Assembly (NCBI RefSeq): GCF_963678975.1
Contig: NC_089281.1
Location: 25,400,765 to 25,464,764, forward strand
Origin: Dysidea avara
Lineage: Eukaryota > Porifera > Demospongiae > Dictyoceratida > Dysideidae
DNA length: 64,000 bases
Reading direction: 5' to 3'
The position numbers and the translations under genes are program-made. Positions 38,927-51,455 of this stretch are shown piece by piece (within the stretch, counting starts at the first letter, position 1; each line of letters begins with the position of its first letter). The notes under the pieces are model-generated. The model had not been told where the DNA came from. It saw only the letters and a program-made list of their open reading frames with translations, and searched no databases.

Positions 38927-39556
38927 TTAATGTAGTCTTAACATGTGACCATTAAGACGACGTTTTGTAGTAAGCCTTGATCCACAAAGATGACACTGAA
39001 ATGGCGAGTGAGCTGTTTTGTGGCCAGTCAGTGTGGAAAGTCGAACAAATTTCTTGTAGCAAATATTACACTGATATGGTTTTGCATCAGTATGAGTTTT
39101 CATGTGGCTGGTCAAACAGAAAGCTGTTGTGAATAGTTTATGGCAGACAGCACACTGGTACGGCTTCTCTCTAGTGTGCAACTTCCTGTGTAACCTTAGG
39201 TAACTTGAAAATCTGAACTCTTTAAAGCAGATATCACATTTGTGAAGTGCCTCTCCTCTTGGCTCATGGATACTCTGCATTGGTGCCTTATCACATGATG
39301 GCCGTTGCTTATGAGCATGCAAGTGCCATGAGAGAGTACCGGGTGTTAAAAAGTCTCTATGACAAACTTCACAAGAGTAGGTTTTACGTGACTGAGTCAT
39401 GTCAAATGTGAGACTAGTGGAAGATGGATGTAATGCTGTCTGGCTGTTACTTGGCTCCTCAACATCATAAAAACGCATGTGAAGTTTGAGGCCAAACTGA
39501 ATTGGAGGTTCAAGTGGTATGCCTTGTCCATAATTGTGATGATATTGGTAAAACAT
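38927..39556 (-). CDS. C2H2 zinc-finger ORF with LINE-derived N-terminus
   Basis: 209 codons read on the minus strand. Residues about 60-83, 105-127, 133-155, 161-183 and 187-209 form five C2H2 fingers, with TGEKP-like linkers (HTREKPYQC, HTDAKPYQC), so sequence-specific DNA binding is likely. The first 22-24 residues (MFYQYHHNYGQGIPLEPPIQ) are not zinc finger. They are the C-terminal part of a non-LTR reverse transcriptase, and the frame stays open upstream through QLVKYHAVCI into the LINE at 39557-42090. So the Met is probably not the true start. Either a zinc-finger exon abuts a LINE by chance, or the ORF is a chimera. No upstream exon of a host gene was recognised. Confidence 0.6.
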   Translation of the reverse strand: MFYQYHHNYGQGIPLEPPIQFGLKLHMRFYDVEEPSNSQTALHPSSTSLTFDMTQSRKTYSCEVCHRDFLTPGTLSWHLHAHKQRPSCDKAPMQSIHEPRGEALHKCDICFKEFRFSSYLRLHRKLHTREKPYQCAVCHKLFTTAFCLTSHMKTHTDAKPYQCNICYKKFVRLSTLTGHKTAHSPFQCHLCGSRLTTKRRLNGHMLRLH

Positions 39557-42090
39557 TATACATACAGCGTGGTACTTAACTAGTTGTGAAAAAGGTAACC
39601 ATTTTTCACTACGATAGTGGACTGTAACATGATCAAAAACTGTAAATGATACAATAATCTAACAGCCCTGTTCTGAAAACGTTGTAATCTTTGAACTGAT
39701 TTGTTTGACTGATGGCCCCCAGACAGACAGAGCATAAGCTAAATGTGAAAAAACTAGACTATCAATTAGTAACTTGGTAATATGATGGTTAAGAACCTTA
39801 CCATGTGACTTAATAATATGTAAATAATATGACATTTTCTTACATACATTAGAAACCCAGGGGCGTAGGGACGGGGGGTTCCGGGGGGTTCAGGGGGGTT
39901 CAGGAACCCCCCTGTAAAATTTAGACTTCTGCAAGCAGGATCCTAACACACCATTTAGTGTGGCAGGACAAAATGAGTGAACAATATAGTGTAATGGCAC
40001 AGCACAACAATTGATAAAACTTACATTCATCTCTCAGGGAAGGATTTACAGAGGTAACATGAGCCCTCTTCATCAAAACTTGCTAAAAAGATCGATATAC
40101 TCTAATAGAGCAGTCAGGTATATACTCTAATAGAGCAGTCAGGTATACTCTAATAGAACATGCATGTAAATATCCATGTCCATATGAAGTTTTTCAGACA
40201 TTCCAACATTAAATGCAAAACTTAGCATGACCTTATACTGCTATAGCTTTGGTGTGCAGTGCATGTTTAAAGATATAGAGCTCCAGTAATTTATCACTTG
40301 TGTTATGCAAAATGAATTCATGCTATGCATATTTGTATAGTTATATTGTTTTGATTGTCATTTGTATCAATGGATTCATGGCTCCTATACCACAGTGAGA
40401 TATAACCATCACTTACAGATTACTATATGTGTCTCTATGTGTTATGCTGTCTGTTTCCACTAGGTGACTTTATCTAGTACTACCTTCATTCCAGGGGCAC
40501 TTAATGCATCATAATTAATGTACTTTTTGCATAAAATATAGCAATTTGCTGAGTTTTGATTTATTAAAATATTGAAAGTCTCTCAGCGGCTGGGGGCTGT
40601 GCCCCCAGACCCCTGTTTCTAGTAACTCAATGCTGGTGCTGGAACCCCCCTTCAAAAAATCCTGGCTACGCCCCTGGAAATCTGATGATCCCATGACAAA
40701 CGACTATCAAAAACAAGGCCCAGATACTTTTGTTTCTCGGTAGTTTGTAAACTAACATCATTGATAGAGATATTTGGATATGGCTGCTGCTTCTTCTGCC
40801 TACCAATATGAAACCATAAAACCGGAGACTTCTGTACATTCAATGACATTCTATGCTTAACCAACCAGTCATGTATCAAAGTTAGTTGTTGATTCATCAC
40901 ATTTGCAGCAACTTCTGGAGTGGACCCAGTGCATACAAGAGTGGTATCATCTGCATATTGTAATCATTAACTACAGAAGGTAGTGTATTTACATAAATTA
41001 AGAAAAGTACGTAGTGGCCCTAAAGCACTTCCTTGAGGAATTGCGGCCTTCATCTGTGCCCAAGATGAAAACTGTTGATTAGATTTCACACGGTGAATTC
41101 TATTAGATAGATAATTCTGAAACCATCTTAATTCAGCATTAGACAGTCCTAAACTTGATAGTCAAGTCAGCAAGATACAGTGATCAAGGGAGTCAAATGC
41201 TTTCCTTAAATCCAAAAATGCTGCACAAAGAGACTTCTTGTTATCCAAGTGGTGAACAATAGAATCAACTGCAACTATTAAAATGTCTCAAGTTCAGTAC
41301 TTTTGCCATGCCTATAGGCACCTTGATGAGGATGGAGCAATTGATGATCTTCCAAATAATTATGATGATAACTGTGCTGACACAATTATCTCCATAATTT
41401 TGGCTACGACAGATACAACAGAAATTGGTCTGTAATTTGATGGATCATCCAAGTTACCCCCTTTGTGGACAGGAGTAATATGGGATTGCTTCCATTCTTG
41501 TGGAATAATACCTTGTTGTAAGGACATATTATTATATAGGTGAGTCAGTAAGAGGTACAGCAATTTCAACTGCAATCTCCTTTAAGTACCGTGCTGACAA
41601 TCTATCTGGACCAGTGGATTTTTGAAATTCTAGAGATGATAAAAGCTTAAATACAGTATCCACAGGAACCTCATTAAAAGAAAAACTAGAGTCACTCAGT
41701 ATCATCAACAGGAAGTGAAAAACTACTAGCAGGCTGATGAGAGGGGGTAACAGCAACATTTTGAAAAAAAATGTTTAGCACATCAGACGAGATATTAGCT
41801 CTTGTTGGTGAAGTAGATCTATTAAGAATACCATTAATACGAGACTACAATTCAGCAGCAAATGCTGGCTGAGATTTGGCCCGAAGAGATGAACTTTGTA
41901 AATAATCAAGCTTAGCTTGACGAATAACAGATTTTAGTTCATTTTTATATTGCTTATAGAAACATTTGATCGTTGTGCTTTCCTTTTTGCCTTATGTTTC
42001 AATTTGATTAAATCTGAAATTTCTTTTGAAAACCATGGTGTGGGTCTTATACAAACATAGTGATTTGTAGCTGCTTTAATTGAAATTTTG
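39530..42090 (-). mobile_element. non-LTR retrotransposon (LINE) fragment, broken
   Basis: Minus-strand order from 42090 down: TPWFSKEISDLIKLKHKAKR (linker before the polymerase), then around 41570-41400 SHITPVHKGG and NYRPISV (reverse-transcriptase motifs), PQGSALGPL near 41030, the catalytic YADD at 40957-40946, NVQKSPVLWFHIG, and KYLGLVFDSRLSW. The element is interrupted at 40676-39859 and resumes with VCKKMSYYLHII and SHLAYALSVWGP. Several frameshifts and stops make it inactive. Motifs fit the CR1/L2/Jockey-type LINE group. Confidence 0.8.
39859..40676. mobile_element. insertion within the LINE, CAGGGGCGTAG termini
   Basis: Begins ccaggggcgtagggac and ends ctacgcccctgg, splitting the LINE coding frame directly after the FDSRLSWDHQI segment. 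Near both ends are gggggttcc / ggaaccccc blocks. Internal atactctaatagagcagtca units repeat three times at 40087-40160. The same unit is seen near 57829 and 56716. Confidence 0.6.
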
Positions 42091-42318: not shown

Positions 42319-44712
42319 ATGGACAAGGAACTTTTTCGCTTAAGTATCTGCGATCACGGTGATGTTGACATCGTGGATGATTCACCAGCCGATACTCGGT
42401 CAACAACACAACCGCGTGATTTTGGAGGATACGGATACCAGTTTGTAGATCCTCCACCTAATGGGTCAGATGTTTTGTGTAAGATATGTTGTCTCCCTAG
42501 TAGAGACCCTTATCTCAGTCAGTGTTGTGGTCACACATTCTGCAAGTCTTGTATTGATGGCACAAAGGAGACCTCAACAGTCAGCAGTGCCTGTCCAATG
42601 TGTCGTACTGAAGAATTTCCAACAGTACAAAACAAACAAGTTGATCGTGCCATTAGAAGCCTCCATGTGTTCTGTAATAACAAATCAGAGGGTTGTGATT
42701 GGGAGGGTGAAGTGAATGATATAACTAAACACTTGACGAGTTGTTTGCATGAAGATGTGACGTGTGACAATAATTGTGGGCTAAGTGTACAACGACGACA
42801 CTTGTCTGATCATCTAGCAAACGGTTGCTCACATCGCATCGTTGAGTGCCAACACTGCCACACAACAGGTCAACATCAGTTGATAGAGGGTGAACACAAA
42901 GATCAGTGTCCTAAGTTTCCAATACAGTGTCCCAACCATTGTACCATTGGAACTGTTTGTCGTGAAGAGTTAGACGTACACCAGAGAAGTTGCCCTCTTG
43001 AGATGATATCTTGTGAGTACTATGATATGGGATGTGAAGTGATGTTGGCTCGTAAGGACATTAAGGAACACAACAAGGAGAATGTTGATGAACATTTGAA
43101 CTTGGTAAAAAGTGAACTAGCAAGTACTAAAATTGAATTACTGCAGGCTAGAAAAGACACAGCAGCTGCAGAGAAAAAAATAATTCTGACAGAAAAGCGG
43201 ATCATGGTGAAAGTTATAGCACACGTTGGTGAAGTATTAGCTGATTTGACTGACAAACTTGAAACAAAAATTGAAGATGTGGAATTTGATGGTAGAAAGA
43301 TGGTAAAGAATTTAGAATCACAGCTCTATAATTCGATGAAACAAATTCACAGAGATTGCAACCCTTGGATTATTAAATTGAATAGCCTGGATGCAATGAG
43401 CAAATCAGGGGACCAGGTAGCACCTGTCGTTTTGAAGATGTCTGATTTCAGCAAGTACAAGAAAGACAAGGAATGGTGGCATAGTCCTCCATTTCATGCC
43501 AACAATAAAGGTTATGTAATGTGTATGACAGCTTGTGCTGCAGGCTATGACACTGGGAAAGGTACTCATCTTTCGGTGTGCCTGTTCCTTATAAAGGAAC
43601 CACAACATAACCAAGGATGGCTATCAAATGGGGAATTCAAAATACAGCTACTCAACCAAAATGCTGATGGGGAGCATCATGTTGTCATTCAAGCGTTTAG
43701 TGACCATACTACAATTAATGATAAAGTTAGCAGCAAGTTACAAGCATTGAAATGCTGGAGAAATCCCCAATTCATTTCATATGAAAACCTTGGTGTAATC
43801 TCTGCTAAATGTAATTTTCTCAAGTTTGATTCCCTATATTTTCAAGTACACGTCAAGTGTGTGCCAGAAGTTTGTGACTCACCCTACATGCAGATGCCCC
43901 CACTTACAACTAACATACCATCTTCATTGCCTATTGCTATGGTAAGCCAAATACTGCATTGCACATGTCAAGTGCTATGATATGCACATAATAATTAATA
44001 CAATTTATTGTTACTGTTGATATGTACAGGCACCTCACAATGAGGAAGTATTGGAAACTAAAAAGAGAACTCAATCTGGTGAGCAAAGTTTCTGTCACTT
44101 GTGTCATTTCAAGGTATCATCAATGTTTAGTTAATACCATCCGGTCACCGCCAAGCAAGGAACAGTTGATTACAGGTGTCTGTGATAATTGTGAAGTATC
44201 TTTTTCAAAACTCTTGAAGAGAAAGGTAAGTCAAATCAAGTCATAATAATACAGTACCGCTGAAATGTAACGTCGTCTCACGAGAGTGCGAGCAATTAAA
44301 AAACGAGCTAATTAAAGGGTGAGGCACCTCTTTCACCTGTAAGTATTCATCTGGGGTGAACACTTGGGAGTGACAAGGGTGCCACGCCCTTTAATTAGCT
44401 CATTTTTGATCACTCGCATGAGATGATATTACATTTGAGCAGTACCGTATTAAAGCAATTTATAAATTGCTTCTTACTTTGATTTTATTAGCACTACTGT
44501 AGCCATTGTGGAGGAGTATTTTGTGGCTCTTGTACTACTAAAGTTAAGAAGGCTCTACTTGGAGCAACAGGTGAGCCCCGCCTATTATATGGTTTTGTGA
44601 TTTAGCCCCACCCTTTTCAGCACCTAATGCACACTCAGAAGCAGTACAAGTTTGTGTGGCCTGCAAAATGTCACTGGAACAGATGAAAAAGGAATCCTTG
44701 CCTAACAAATAA
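42319..44712 (+). CDS. RING-TRAF-MATH protein with C-terminal FYVE finger
   Basis: TRAF-family E3 ligase adaptor with an unusual tail. Exons: 42319-43941, 44030-44078, 44176-44225, 44492-44570, 44621-44712; total 630 aa. Residues 54-95 are a RING finger (CKICCLPSRDPYLSQCCGHT ... CPMC). About 116-250 are TRAF-type zinc fingers, 255-345 a coiled coil, and 370-513 a MATH domain (VLKMSDFSKYK, then FKIQLLNQ). After the splice at codon 541 (phase 0) the exons encode CDNC, KRKHYCSHCGGVFCGSC and VQVCVAC: eight Cys in FYVE spacing with a basic KRKHYC patch, then GATAPNAHSEA as in protrudin. Reading through the first donor instead gives a 553-aa protein without FYVE. The first exon is one uninterrupted 1.6-kb block. 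The MITE at 44250-44449 fills most of intron 3. Regular TRAF-like genes lack FYVE. Confidence 0.85.
44250..44449. mobile_element. TA-flanked palindromic MITE in an intron
   Basis: Inverted arms start tacagtaccgctgaaatgta and include gagctaattaaaggg with its partner ccctttaattagctc. It accounts for nearly all of the 266-bp third intron of the TRAF-FYVE gene. Confidence 0.6.
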
Positions 44713-45257: not shown

Positions 45258-45689
45258 TTAAGAAGACTGAAAGTCTCACTTCTATTAAATAATTGTGAGA
45301 TGCAACTAGTTTCATGGGTATGTACTGATATTATATTTATATTTATTACTGTGCAGCAATCAAAAGATTATAACGCACAGGTGTGATCATAAAAGTTACT
45401 TAAGTTATTACAAAACTCATTAGGGGTAGATATAGTCTATATCAAAGAAATTTCATTCAATGATGATTTAATTAAAGATGATTATACACCACACAGAGAA
45501 AACTATCCCATATAACTGCAATACCAGCTAGATTGTATTCATACACTGCAGTCACAAGGGAAATAAAAGTCATGACTATATAGTCATTATATTTTTCAAG
45601 ACATGAAAGAAGCCTGTAGCATTTAAACATATAGTGTTCCTTTGCTTATAAAGGAGGTGGTCATGATTTCATAACAGGATTGCTCTGCA

Positions 45690-46720
45690 GTACTCGCTTC
45701 GCATTGTTGACTGCCAACACTTCCACACAACAAGTTGACATCAGCTGATAGAGGCGAGGCCAGGGTGAACACAAAAGATCAGTGTCCCAAGTTTCCAAAA
45801 CAGTGTCCCAGCCATTGTACCATTAGAACTGTTTGTTGTGAAGAGTTGGGAAATTTGAGGTGGTATCTTGTGAATACTATGATATGGGATGTGATGGCTT
45901 GTAAGGACATGAAGGAACACAACAAGGAGAAAACTGCAGCTTAGTAAAATGTGAACTAACAAGTGCTAAAGATGAATTAGTACAGAGAAGCAGGTAACAC
46001 TTAAAATTATAGCATATGTTGGTGAAGTGTTGGCTGTCTTGAGAAACAATCCAAGATAAGAATGTTCAATTAACTATAATCACAACTCTACAATTTGATG
46101 AAGTTACTACACTAAGAGTGCAACTTGAGAATTAGCAACTTAGCTACAATGAGGGGACCTGAGGATGTCAGATTTCAGCAAATACATACAAGAAAGACAA
46201 GGATACTATATATAAGTAGTTAAGTACCCAAGCTATTACTATGATCTCCTGGGTACACGCGTACAACTATATGTATCCCAGAATCAGAGGACTCTGTGCC
46301 ACAAATACCATTGTAGTCACTGTGGAGGAGTGTTTTGTGGTTGTTGTACAGGCTAAAAATTAAGTGTTGTTGCTGTACACTTCGCCCACAATTATTGTCA
46401 CACGTCACATCTTGATATAAAGACTCGTCAAGTGTTTAATTATATCATTCACTTCACCCTCCCAATCACAGCCATCTGATTTGAGGCTTCCACCAACTTT
46501 GTTTTTTACTGTTAGAAATTCTTCAGTATGACATATTGGACAGGCACTGTTGACAGTTGATATCTCCTTCATGCCATCAATACAAGACTTGCAGAACGTG
46601 TGACCACAACACTGACTGAGATAAGGGTCTCTACTAAGGAGACAACATCTTACACAAAACATCTGACCCATTAGGTGGAGGATCTACAAACTGGTATCCG
46701 TATCCACCATATACTTACCA
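45690..46720. pseudogene. rearranged dead copy of the TRAF-FYVE gene
   Basis: Plus-strand 45696-45945 matches the TRAF zinc-finger region (42830-43135) with frameshifts. Bases 46130-46200 match the start of the MATH region (43400-43475). Bases 46302-46352 match FYVE exon 4, reading KYHCSHCGGVFCGCC before a stop. In inverted orientation, 46715-46375 match the RING and first TRAF-finger region (42430-42790), with a 2-bp deletion after GTTTTGTGTAAGAT breaking the RING. So the copy once had the same RING-to-FYVE layout and was later inverted and eroded. Confidence 0.75.
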
Positions 46721-48966: not shown

Positions 48967-51455
48967 TTATTGAACTGAGGCTGGGTTGGCAGTTTGGTGC
49001 AATGACAGATGTTGTTGTAGTTGGTAATTTGTAAGTTCTTTTTGCATTGCTTCTAGCAGTATATTACAGTCATTACACACCCGCACCATCTCAGAGTAGG
49101 CTGCGGGTGCTGCAATAAGAGAGAGATAAGATAGTCAACACATATGTAATTCTGTACATTACTTACAAGTTGCTCCAAGTAGTGATTTTGTGACTCTGAC
49201 GGTACACGAACCGCAGAACATTCTGCCACAGTTGTTGCATTTATGCTAAAATATAATTATTGGGGATACACACAATAATAAATCTATAAAGATTTGTTAC
49301 CTTTCTCTTTAAAAGCTTGGCAAATGAAACACCACACTTGTCACAACAGCCTATATTTTCTACCCTCTTTCTTTTGGGCTCTGGTGATGCCTCTTCTGAA
49401 AAGGGAAAATAAAAACTTACCCAGAATGATGAAACAATTTAATCCATATTACCTCGTCTGTGTTTGTCATCTTCAGTTTCCGACACTGGATGATCTTGTG
49501 GAACCTGAGTACAACAAAATAGTGTATCAAATTATGGTACCATAATTCTATAGCATCCATACCAAATTACTAAGACAACAATTCAAAAGCTCTACTCACC
49601 TCTGGAGATACAGAGGGCGATGATTGAGTAGCAGAGGCTGCTGCTTGATCATGTGGTTGTGGTTGCTGTTCTTGTTGCTTCTGTACAGTTGATCGTCTAA
49701 AAATATTTGAAGACAATTTCTGCCTTAGCCATTTCCAACTAGTTATGGTCCACACATGAGCCCCTATAATTGTTCATAACAACATTGTCATCATAGAACA
49801 AGCCTTACGCACATTCCAGGAATTCTTTGTTAGCACAAAATATAAATACGACAACAATTATTAGTAAAGTTCTCACAGGAACAACAATGGACGACAAACA
49901 TAGAACACACAAAGCAACAAGAAGACTAGAAAACAAGAATAATAACAAATACGTCTTTTAGAAATAATGAACTCAAACCTGACTGAATACAAAGGTTTTT
50001 TCCATGCAAGAATTCTGCATAAAAATAAATCAAACAAGCTCTTATTTGATAAATATAACATACCCGTAAAAACTAACTATAGCCGTGTTGGCTTGTACCA
50101 TTACATTATTAGCCTGTAACAACCTGCAACAGAGGAAAAGCATAAATGTTTAAATAATATACGTGCTCTTGAAAGCTTACATTTTTCTATATTCTTGAAT
50201 AATTTTCTGAATGTGTTTTTCCTTTACCAATGACTTTTCCTATGACAAATACAAAGAGCAAAATATTCAATACTTATGCCTTTTCTTTTATTTAGTAAGT
50301 GTTTGGAAGCAGGTTTGGTATTGTATATCATAGTAGTGAAAGCTCTTTTCACAATTTCTTGCAAAGGTGCAAAGTAAAAGGTCACAATTTGCAGACCCAA
50401 TTTGTTGTCTCAATTAAACAGTTGTAATATAAGATTTTAAAAATGGAATTCTGGAAAATTGGTGATGCATGTTTAACCAAGAGTTTGGTATAAAGTTTGC
50501 TGCAGTAACACAGTTTAAAACTACACAGTTACATTGTTGTCTGCAGTAGTGTATATGTAAATTATCGCTTTGCCCTTTTACCACCACGTAGTGTGAAAAA
50601 CTTATCAATTGATTTGTTGGAAACAACTAGCAATGATAAATGATGGATATGACAAGCTTAAGAATCATGAGGTCACTCCTACACTTGGTTTATGACAAAA
50701 ATGGTTGTTATGCATAAGGGATATACCCTCTAAGTGTTGCACTAGTAATTCAATATGCCGGTACAGGCTAAATCACTTGTAATTCAGTACAGCAATGTGA
50801 TACATATATAATACCCTCAATACTGCCATACACAAACCAAAGAATACAATAATTCTAACAAACATAATCAGTTTAAATATTATGAATGCAAAGTAATCAC
50901 TCAGCTATTTGACAATAATTCTGCTCACCAAATAATGAATTTACAGTAGCACAATTAGCTACACTTACTAAGTGAGGATTATTAGGGTGAATATACTTAA
51001 GTGATTCTGTGGCATCTGCTGCTTCCATCTTCCGATGATGCTGCATTATAAAATTCTGCCTGCTCAGCAGTAGACATATTGCTCCAATGAGGCATAGAGT
51101 AAATAACAATGTTTCTATTGTAAACACAAACATAATATTATATAACTGCAATACACGGCAGAATTTATAGTGCCTTACCAAAGCTATATACAGCAAAGAC
51201 GCATGCAATGAGCGCTCCAATACTTAGTAAGTCGTTTTTCCATCTGCAAAAGAAATTTCACACTTAACACAGCCTATTTCACAATCAGCGAAATCATCAA
51301 GTACGCCGGGTACCAGAGAAAATAGGGAAACGCTTCACTCACGATAAAGAGTAGGATGCAACACGTAGGCAGACAAGCACAGGACGCATCAACTCCAACA
51401 ACTGCTTATAATTGTCGACTACATCAGCGATGTCAACGGAGGTAGGTCTGGCCAT
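48967..51455 (-). CDS. ZFYVE27: protrudin-like FYVE protein (ZFYVE27)
   Basis: Protrudin is an ER protein that shapes membranes and meets late endosomes through its FYVE domain. Eleven minus-strand exons with consistent GT-AG sites: 51455-51343, 51243-51179, 51114-50969, 50239-50181, 50123-50064, 50014-49979, 49696-49600, 49504-49453, 49395-49301, 49245-49167, 49109-48967. They give 314 aa (human about 411). Residues about 42-76 hold two close hydrophobic segments (IGALIACVFAVYSF, LLFTLCLIGAICLLL), like the reticulon-type hairpin. Residues 109-147 are helical and coiled-coil-like, 160-200 Gln/Ser-rich, and 227-290 FYVE (CDKCGVSFAKLLKRKHKC, NNCGRMFCGSC, VRVCNDC). GATSPAAYSEMV matches human GATAPEAQRETV. 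A basic PKRKRVE precedes the FYVE. I see no clear FFAT motif. It shares a promoter region with GUF1. Confidence 0.88.

Follow-up and report, generated by a model that had tools for sequence, protein, structure and literature searches.

Textbook members of the TRAF family end at the MATH domain, and the question raised by the window analyzed here, a stretch of 64,000 nucleotides from the sponge Dysidea avara, is whether a TRAF-type gene within it continues into a FYVE finger. A preliminary description had proposed such a fusion, with a complete eight-cysteine finger encoded by four small exons downstream of a TRAF-type exon. The locus is probably a single gene for a TRAF-type protein ending in a protrudin-type FYVE domain, whose FYVE exons would derive from the adjacent protrudin gene and whose product would be a membrane-held ligase. 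Within this reading, the intact frame, the splice signals, the domains and the long-term constraint on the tail are demonstrated at the level of the sequence.

The predicted five-exon gene model (42319-44712, plus strand) was confirmed, with every exon boundary exactly as first proposed. Exon 1 (42319-43941, 541 codons), which is supported by splicing, Pfam, PDB sequence matches and a structure model, covers a putative RING, the TRAF zinc fingers, a probable coiled coil and the MATH domain and ends in a phase-0 donor. Exon 2 (44030-44078), placed by splicing and with weak similarity to protrudin linkers, encodes a basic linker that carries the frame into the FYVE domain. The finger itself is encoded by exon 3 (44176-44225; Cys pair 1, ending in KLLKRK), exon 4 (44492-44570; Cys pairs 2 and 3) and exon 5 (44621-44712; Cys pair 4, C-terminus and stop), each supported by splicing, Pfam and codon comparison. 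Joining of the exons results in 1893 nt, i.e. 630 codons and a stop in an intact frame. All four introns are of the GT...AG type, and their lengths of 88, 97, 266 and 50 nt lie inside the intron range of the neighbouring protrudin gene (49-729 nt).

The splice sites were scored with a matrix built from the 11 introns of this neighbouring gene, and the donors were ranked against all GTs in the window. The four donors were found at the 99.5th, 99.5th, 100.0th and 99.7th percentile. The acceptors reached 80.5, 94.1, 91.4 and 74.9 in comparison to 94.4-100 for the protrudin gene's own acceptors; they are weaker than those of the neighbour, and two are mediocre. Exon 2 is required, because direct splicing of exon 1 to exon 3 leads to a stop codon. 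When exon 2 was compared with protrudin linkers, the score of P0127 was equalled in 109 of 5000 shuffles and that of P0124 in 365 of 5000, with worse results for the other five. A correspondence of exon 2 to the linker KPHPHEEQVC found in the sister clade was rejected, since there the linker precedes the donor and lies inside exon 1. Intron 3 consists mostly of a palindrome (44247-44472), an inverted repeat of about 71% identity with a 20-base exact piece, which resembles a small mobile element.

The predicted 630-aa product carries, in this order, a putative RING, TRAF zinc fingers, a probable coiled coil, MATH and FYVE. In the Pfam scan, zf-TRAF (58.6 bits vs. a cut-off of 27, in two stretches), MATH_2 (51.9 vs. 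32), TRAF-mep_MATH (32.6 vs. 27.4) and FYVE (43.6 vs. 27.8) exceeded their thresholds, and the tail alone reached 49.5 bits (E 4.6e-13). Together with all eight zinc-ligand cysteines (CDNC, CSHC, CGSC and CVAC), this bears out the complete FYVE finger of the preliminary description. Every Pfam RING model stayed under its cut-off (best 22.2 vs. 25.2), although by visual inspection the full set of C3HC4 ligands is present and RING-zinc-finger chains of TRAF6 and TRAF5 in the PDB match the exon-1 product by sequence. A structure model of the 553-aa exon-1 ORF, computed from a shallow alignment of nine sequences and of low confidence (mean pLDDT 52, pTM 0.27), contains a zinc-finger array, a long helix (245-346) and weak MATH strands. 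TRAF and SPOP MATH structures were among the matches of a fold search with this model, which lends weak support because model confidence is low and the MATH strands lie largely around or below pLDDT 50.

The FYVE tail is of the protrudin (ZFYVE27) type, as judged by its sequence relatives. Its best PDB match is ZFYVE27 (E 1.2e-12); HRS comes next (6.8e-6), and another 13 entries match with E-values no greater than 1. The tail has the stretch GATxPxA..E.V.VC in common with protrudin FYVE domains. In the protein search with the tail, P0121 (FYVE and Pex24p) was the sole match among 25 candidates. This search considers only proteins of about 347-1102 aa that have 5-residue words in common with the query, and P0126, the D. 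avara protrudin, was not among its matches, so a fused relative could have escaped it. When the P0121 FYVE served as query (lengths of about 219-698 aa), 8 of the 22 candidates matched, and the Pfam column lists no TRAF domain for any of them. To the FYVE domains of P0121-P0128 the tail shows 57-67% identity over 60-63 residues, with 63% for the neighbour (P0126) and 67% for P0123 and P0127; no branch of the FYVE tree is well supported. All seven of P0121-P0125, P0127 and P0128 also match the first 265 residues of D. avara protrudin, i.e. outside the FYVE domain, with E-values from 2.6e-88 (P0127) to 5.8e-4 (P0128) and 2.2e-24 for P0121. With an E-value limit of 10, the tail matched the D. avara genome 15 times in a six-frame search. 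The gene's own exons account for four of the matches and exons of the neighbouring protrudin gene for two (E 7.6e-5 and 0.63, because introns divide the match); the other nine are located at different places in the genome. Of these nine, the strongest (E 5.0e-5, 42% identity) and others read as ordinary FYVE domains lacking the GATxPxA stretch, and the last three look unrelated or RING-like.

The protrudin-like gene (48967-51455, minus strand) is located tail-to-tail with the TRAF-FYVE gene at a distance of 4.3 kb and is the likely source of the FYVE exons; the preliminary description did not mention this related neighbour. It was modelled by hand with 12 exons, and its product of 374 aa is identical to the NCBI protein 'protrudin-like [Dysidea avara]' (P0126). 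Its FYVE domain is encoded by exons 10-12 (49395-49301, 49245-49167 and 49109-48967, minus strand; hand model and codon comparison). Both genes have the same intron positions and phases in the FYVE domain, KRK|H in phase 0 and GAT|xP in phase 1, and the TRAF-FYVE gene has one extra intron just before the first Cys pair.

Between the two genes, a decayed copy of the TRAF-FYVE gene could be detected by tblastn and blastn (45673-46350, plus strand). It comprises zinc-finger, coiled-coil and MATH-start pieces followed by a piece of FYVE exon 4 (46288-46350). An inverted part (46343-46711, minus strand), with 85% DNA identity over 381 columns including 33 gaps, covers the N-terminus, the RING and the first zinc finger. 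As the TRAF and FYVE pieces of the plus-strand part are kept in the order of the intact gene, it seems that both halves were copied together. The simplest history would be an old capture of the last exons of the adjacent protrudin gene by a TRAF gene. Since the FYVE tree is unsupported and the tail is not closest to the neighbour, this origin is argued from gene structure and proximity. A local inverted duplication of the convergent protrudin gene would have supplied the FYVE exons, which could then have been spliced onto a TRAF exon having a phase-0 donor after MATH.

Over 74 aligned codons, the tail and the FYVE domain of the neighbour are identical at 74, 78 and 36% of the first, second and third positions. 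With pS at 0.857 (dS saturated) and pN at 0.235, pN/pS amounts to 0.27 (bootstrap 0.18-0.40), a pairwise value that cannot apportion constraint between the TRAF-FYVE tail and the protrudin FYVE. The tail is coding, because synonymous sites are saturated while the protein is conserved, and the FYVE E-value and the codon-position conservation place the gene model above chance. Frame, cysteines and introns are still intact after saturation, which argues that the TRAF-FYVE copy was held under constraint as well. On these comparisons, long-term coding constraint on the FYVE tail is demonstrated.

A protein search found 240 homologues, of which 120 were used. FYVE is absent from the precomputed Pfam column of all 120 homologues listed, which says little because many of them are unspliced ORF calls. 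In the tree of these 120, the TRAF-FYVE gene, represented by its exon-1 ORF P0001 (553 aa), falls into a clade of 15 with a support of 100, inside which it groups with P0002 and P0003, the three being sister to 12 proteins from other records. The motif V[SRG], which is what read-through of a phase-0 donor would give, occurs in the last 32 aa of 12 of the 14 clade proteins with a readable end (absent in P0041 and P0114; P0079 unreadable). By shuffling, 5.7 of 14 were expected and at least 12 were reached in 3 of 5000 trials, a figure that overstates the signal because the motif was picked after viewing the tails and the sequences are related. Among the 105 proteins that do not belong to the clade, the MATH end could be placed by a rough regular expression in 49. 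No more than 6 residues follow it in 32 of these, 9-17 in 6 and at least 60 in 11.

Within D. avara, 19 paralogue loci (L025-L043) were inspected, and all 18 with a readable MATH end stop no more than 4 codons past the match (L039 is unreadable). A search for the FYVE tail over the 19 loci, with about 1.5 kb downstream of MATH covered at 14 of them and 435-909 bases at L037, L038, L041 and L043, revealed no FYVE and one RING-like match, in L043. TRAF-like sequences are numerous in the assembly, with at least 148 matches to exon 1 among the best 80 scored of 851 candidates. Relatives of the TRAF-FYVE gene were found neither in viral contigs (exon 1, alignment A1) nor in genome contigs (alignment A1). 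It may be speculated that the whole clade of 15 sponge TRAFs, in which FYVE itself is seen in one member and the others end at the donor-like motif, has acquired a protrudin FYVE by capture, placed downstream of a conserved phase-0 intron, and comprises phosphoinositide-gated trimeric ligases on phagocytic or plasma membranes. We regard this extension as rather doubtful; if true, it would mean a lineage-specific coupling of membrane state to immune ubiquitin signalling.

The same locus could be read as two genes, a TRAF gene that stops shortly after exon 1 and encodes 553 aa, and a separate small FYVE gene starting inside intron 1. The frame at 43995-44246 is open, has an ATG and runs into the first half of the FYVE domain, to be followed by exons 4-5. 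The spliced 630-aa protein was also missing among the matches listed in the protein searches (candidates of about 347-1102 aa), although the database searched does contain D. avara protrudin. Against this, alignment scores show no clear resemblance to protrudin in the upstream part of the small ORF, and in the relatives the exon-1 ORFs end at the donor-like motif. Beyond this motif, VSQ is all that P0001, P0002 and P0003 have in common before they stop after 7-12 residues. Two separate genes are unlikely.

Alternative splicing would yield both a short TRAF and the TRAF-FYVE protein, with FYVE as a switchable membrane anchor. Intron 1 is short and has an in-frame stop after the donor, and a weaker alternative donor at 44113 (92.6th percentile), with which the extended exon 2 would end in GEQSFCHLCHFK, joins exon 4 at 44492 in frame and skips exon 3. 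This skip would leave CHLC six residues before HYC..C, presumably too short for a normal FYVE, and we give such a switch little credence. That the FYVE exons are an unused remnant of a duplicated protrudin beside a TRAF gene is very improbable: the decayed copy next door demonstrates that copies do decay here, and constraint on just one of the two compared lineages could explain part of the low pN/pS, but saturated synonymous sites in a conserved protein, eight of eight cysteines and four usable introns speak against it.

The proposed fused gene can be compared with several known systems. With the TRAF family (TRAF2/4/6 and sponge TRAF-like genes) it has in common the RING pattern, the TRAF zinc fingers, the probable coiled coil and MATH, by sequence and, at low model confidence, by fold; it differs in continuing into FYVE, while the 18 readable D. 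avara paralogues end at MATH. Protrudin is similar in FYVE sequence, GATxPxA..E.V.VC stretch and intron positions. Its N-terminal transmembrane/hairpin region was not found in the TRAF-FYVE product, in which Pfam places TRAF domains and where the putative RING, zinc fingers and MATH are located instead. RFFL/CARP2 and RNF34/CARP1 likewise combine an E3 RING with a FYVE-like finger; unlike in the product described here, this finger is N-terminal, and TRAF zinc fingers and MATH are lacking.

RFFL is described as endosomal in PMC12211564, and a reference cited there treats CARP-2 as an endosomal RIP ligase in TNF signalling. The TRAF-like E3 TrafE of Dictyostelium is recruited to damaged endolysosomes according to PMC10181826; it is similar as a membrane-recruited ligase and differs in that recruitment depends on the RING and that the word FYVE is absent from the main text of that paper. 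Membrane-recruited TRAF-like and RING-FYVE ligases thus exist. The preliminary description had called RING-TRAF-MATH-FYVE an apparently new architecture and knew of no TRAF-type protein with FYVE. The architecture remains the best reading of the sponge gene, and the novelty is softened by a 2010 survey, a table of which contains zf-TRAF among the FYVE-associated domains (PMC2837644). This pairing has hence been tabulated already, and the sponge gene would add RING-zfTRAF-MATH-FYVE with a likely traceable origin. A term search of the main text of the D. avara genome paper (PMC12909245) found neither TRAF nor FYVE.

Canonical PI3P-binding FYVE domains contain the motifs WxxD, R(R/K)HHCR (RRHHCR) and RVC. 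In the tail, no W precedes the first Cys pair, RKHYCS replaces RRHHCR and VQVC replaces RVC, and the lipid-binding residues are thereby more reduced than in the neighbouring protrudin (VQVC vs. VRVC). For the protrudin FYVE, a review states that PI3P residues are not conserved and that PI(4,5)P2, PI(3,4)P2 and PI(3,4,5)P3 are bound (PMC7769939). Due to the absent canonical motifs and these other lipids, PI3P binding by the predicted tail is doubtful. The earlier proposal of a TRAF-like E3 or adaptor on phosphoinositide-bearing membranes, for example endosomes, is accordingly weakened in its PI3P and endosome part. In its favour, the protrudin FYVE is said to allow interactions with both the surface membrane and endosomes (PMC7645621), and the FYVE-like fingers of RFFL and RNF34 are reported to bind PI3P together with palmitoylation (PMC12211564).

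In the proposed mechanism, the RING would act as a ubiquitin ligase, the coiled coil would trimerise the protein and MATH would bind receptor or cargo peptides, while three FYVE fingers per trimer would give avidity for a phosphoinositide-bearing membrane. The first candidates for the lipid would be PI(4,5)P2, PI(3,4)P2 and PI(3,4,5)P3 of the plasma membrane or phagocytic cup, with endosomal PI3P as the second. As TRAF domains themselves bind PI(4,5)P2 and PI(3,4,5)P3 (PMC3848981), FYVE would add to an existing tendency. If true, a module dedicated to membrane lipids would here be part of a TRAF-family protein and tie an immune-type adaptor directly to membranes, and the gene would clearly exemplify how a new animal protein is built from the 3′ exons of the gene next door. 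With it, one could test whether ubiquitin signalling by TRAF proteins is directed to particular membranes in sponges, e.g., during microbe uptake.

In the surroundings, reverse-transcriptase-like ORF pieces (YADD-like, by eye) are located on the minus strand just upstream of the TRAF gene (40652-40963 and 41532-41774), and an open frame at 38927-39658, also on the minus strand, encodes what look by eye like consecutive C2H2 zinc fingers. ORF pieces on the plus strand from about 51639 onwards look by eye like a LepA/GUF1-type GTPase and are arranged head-to-head with the protrudin gene.
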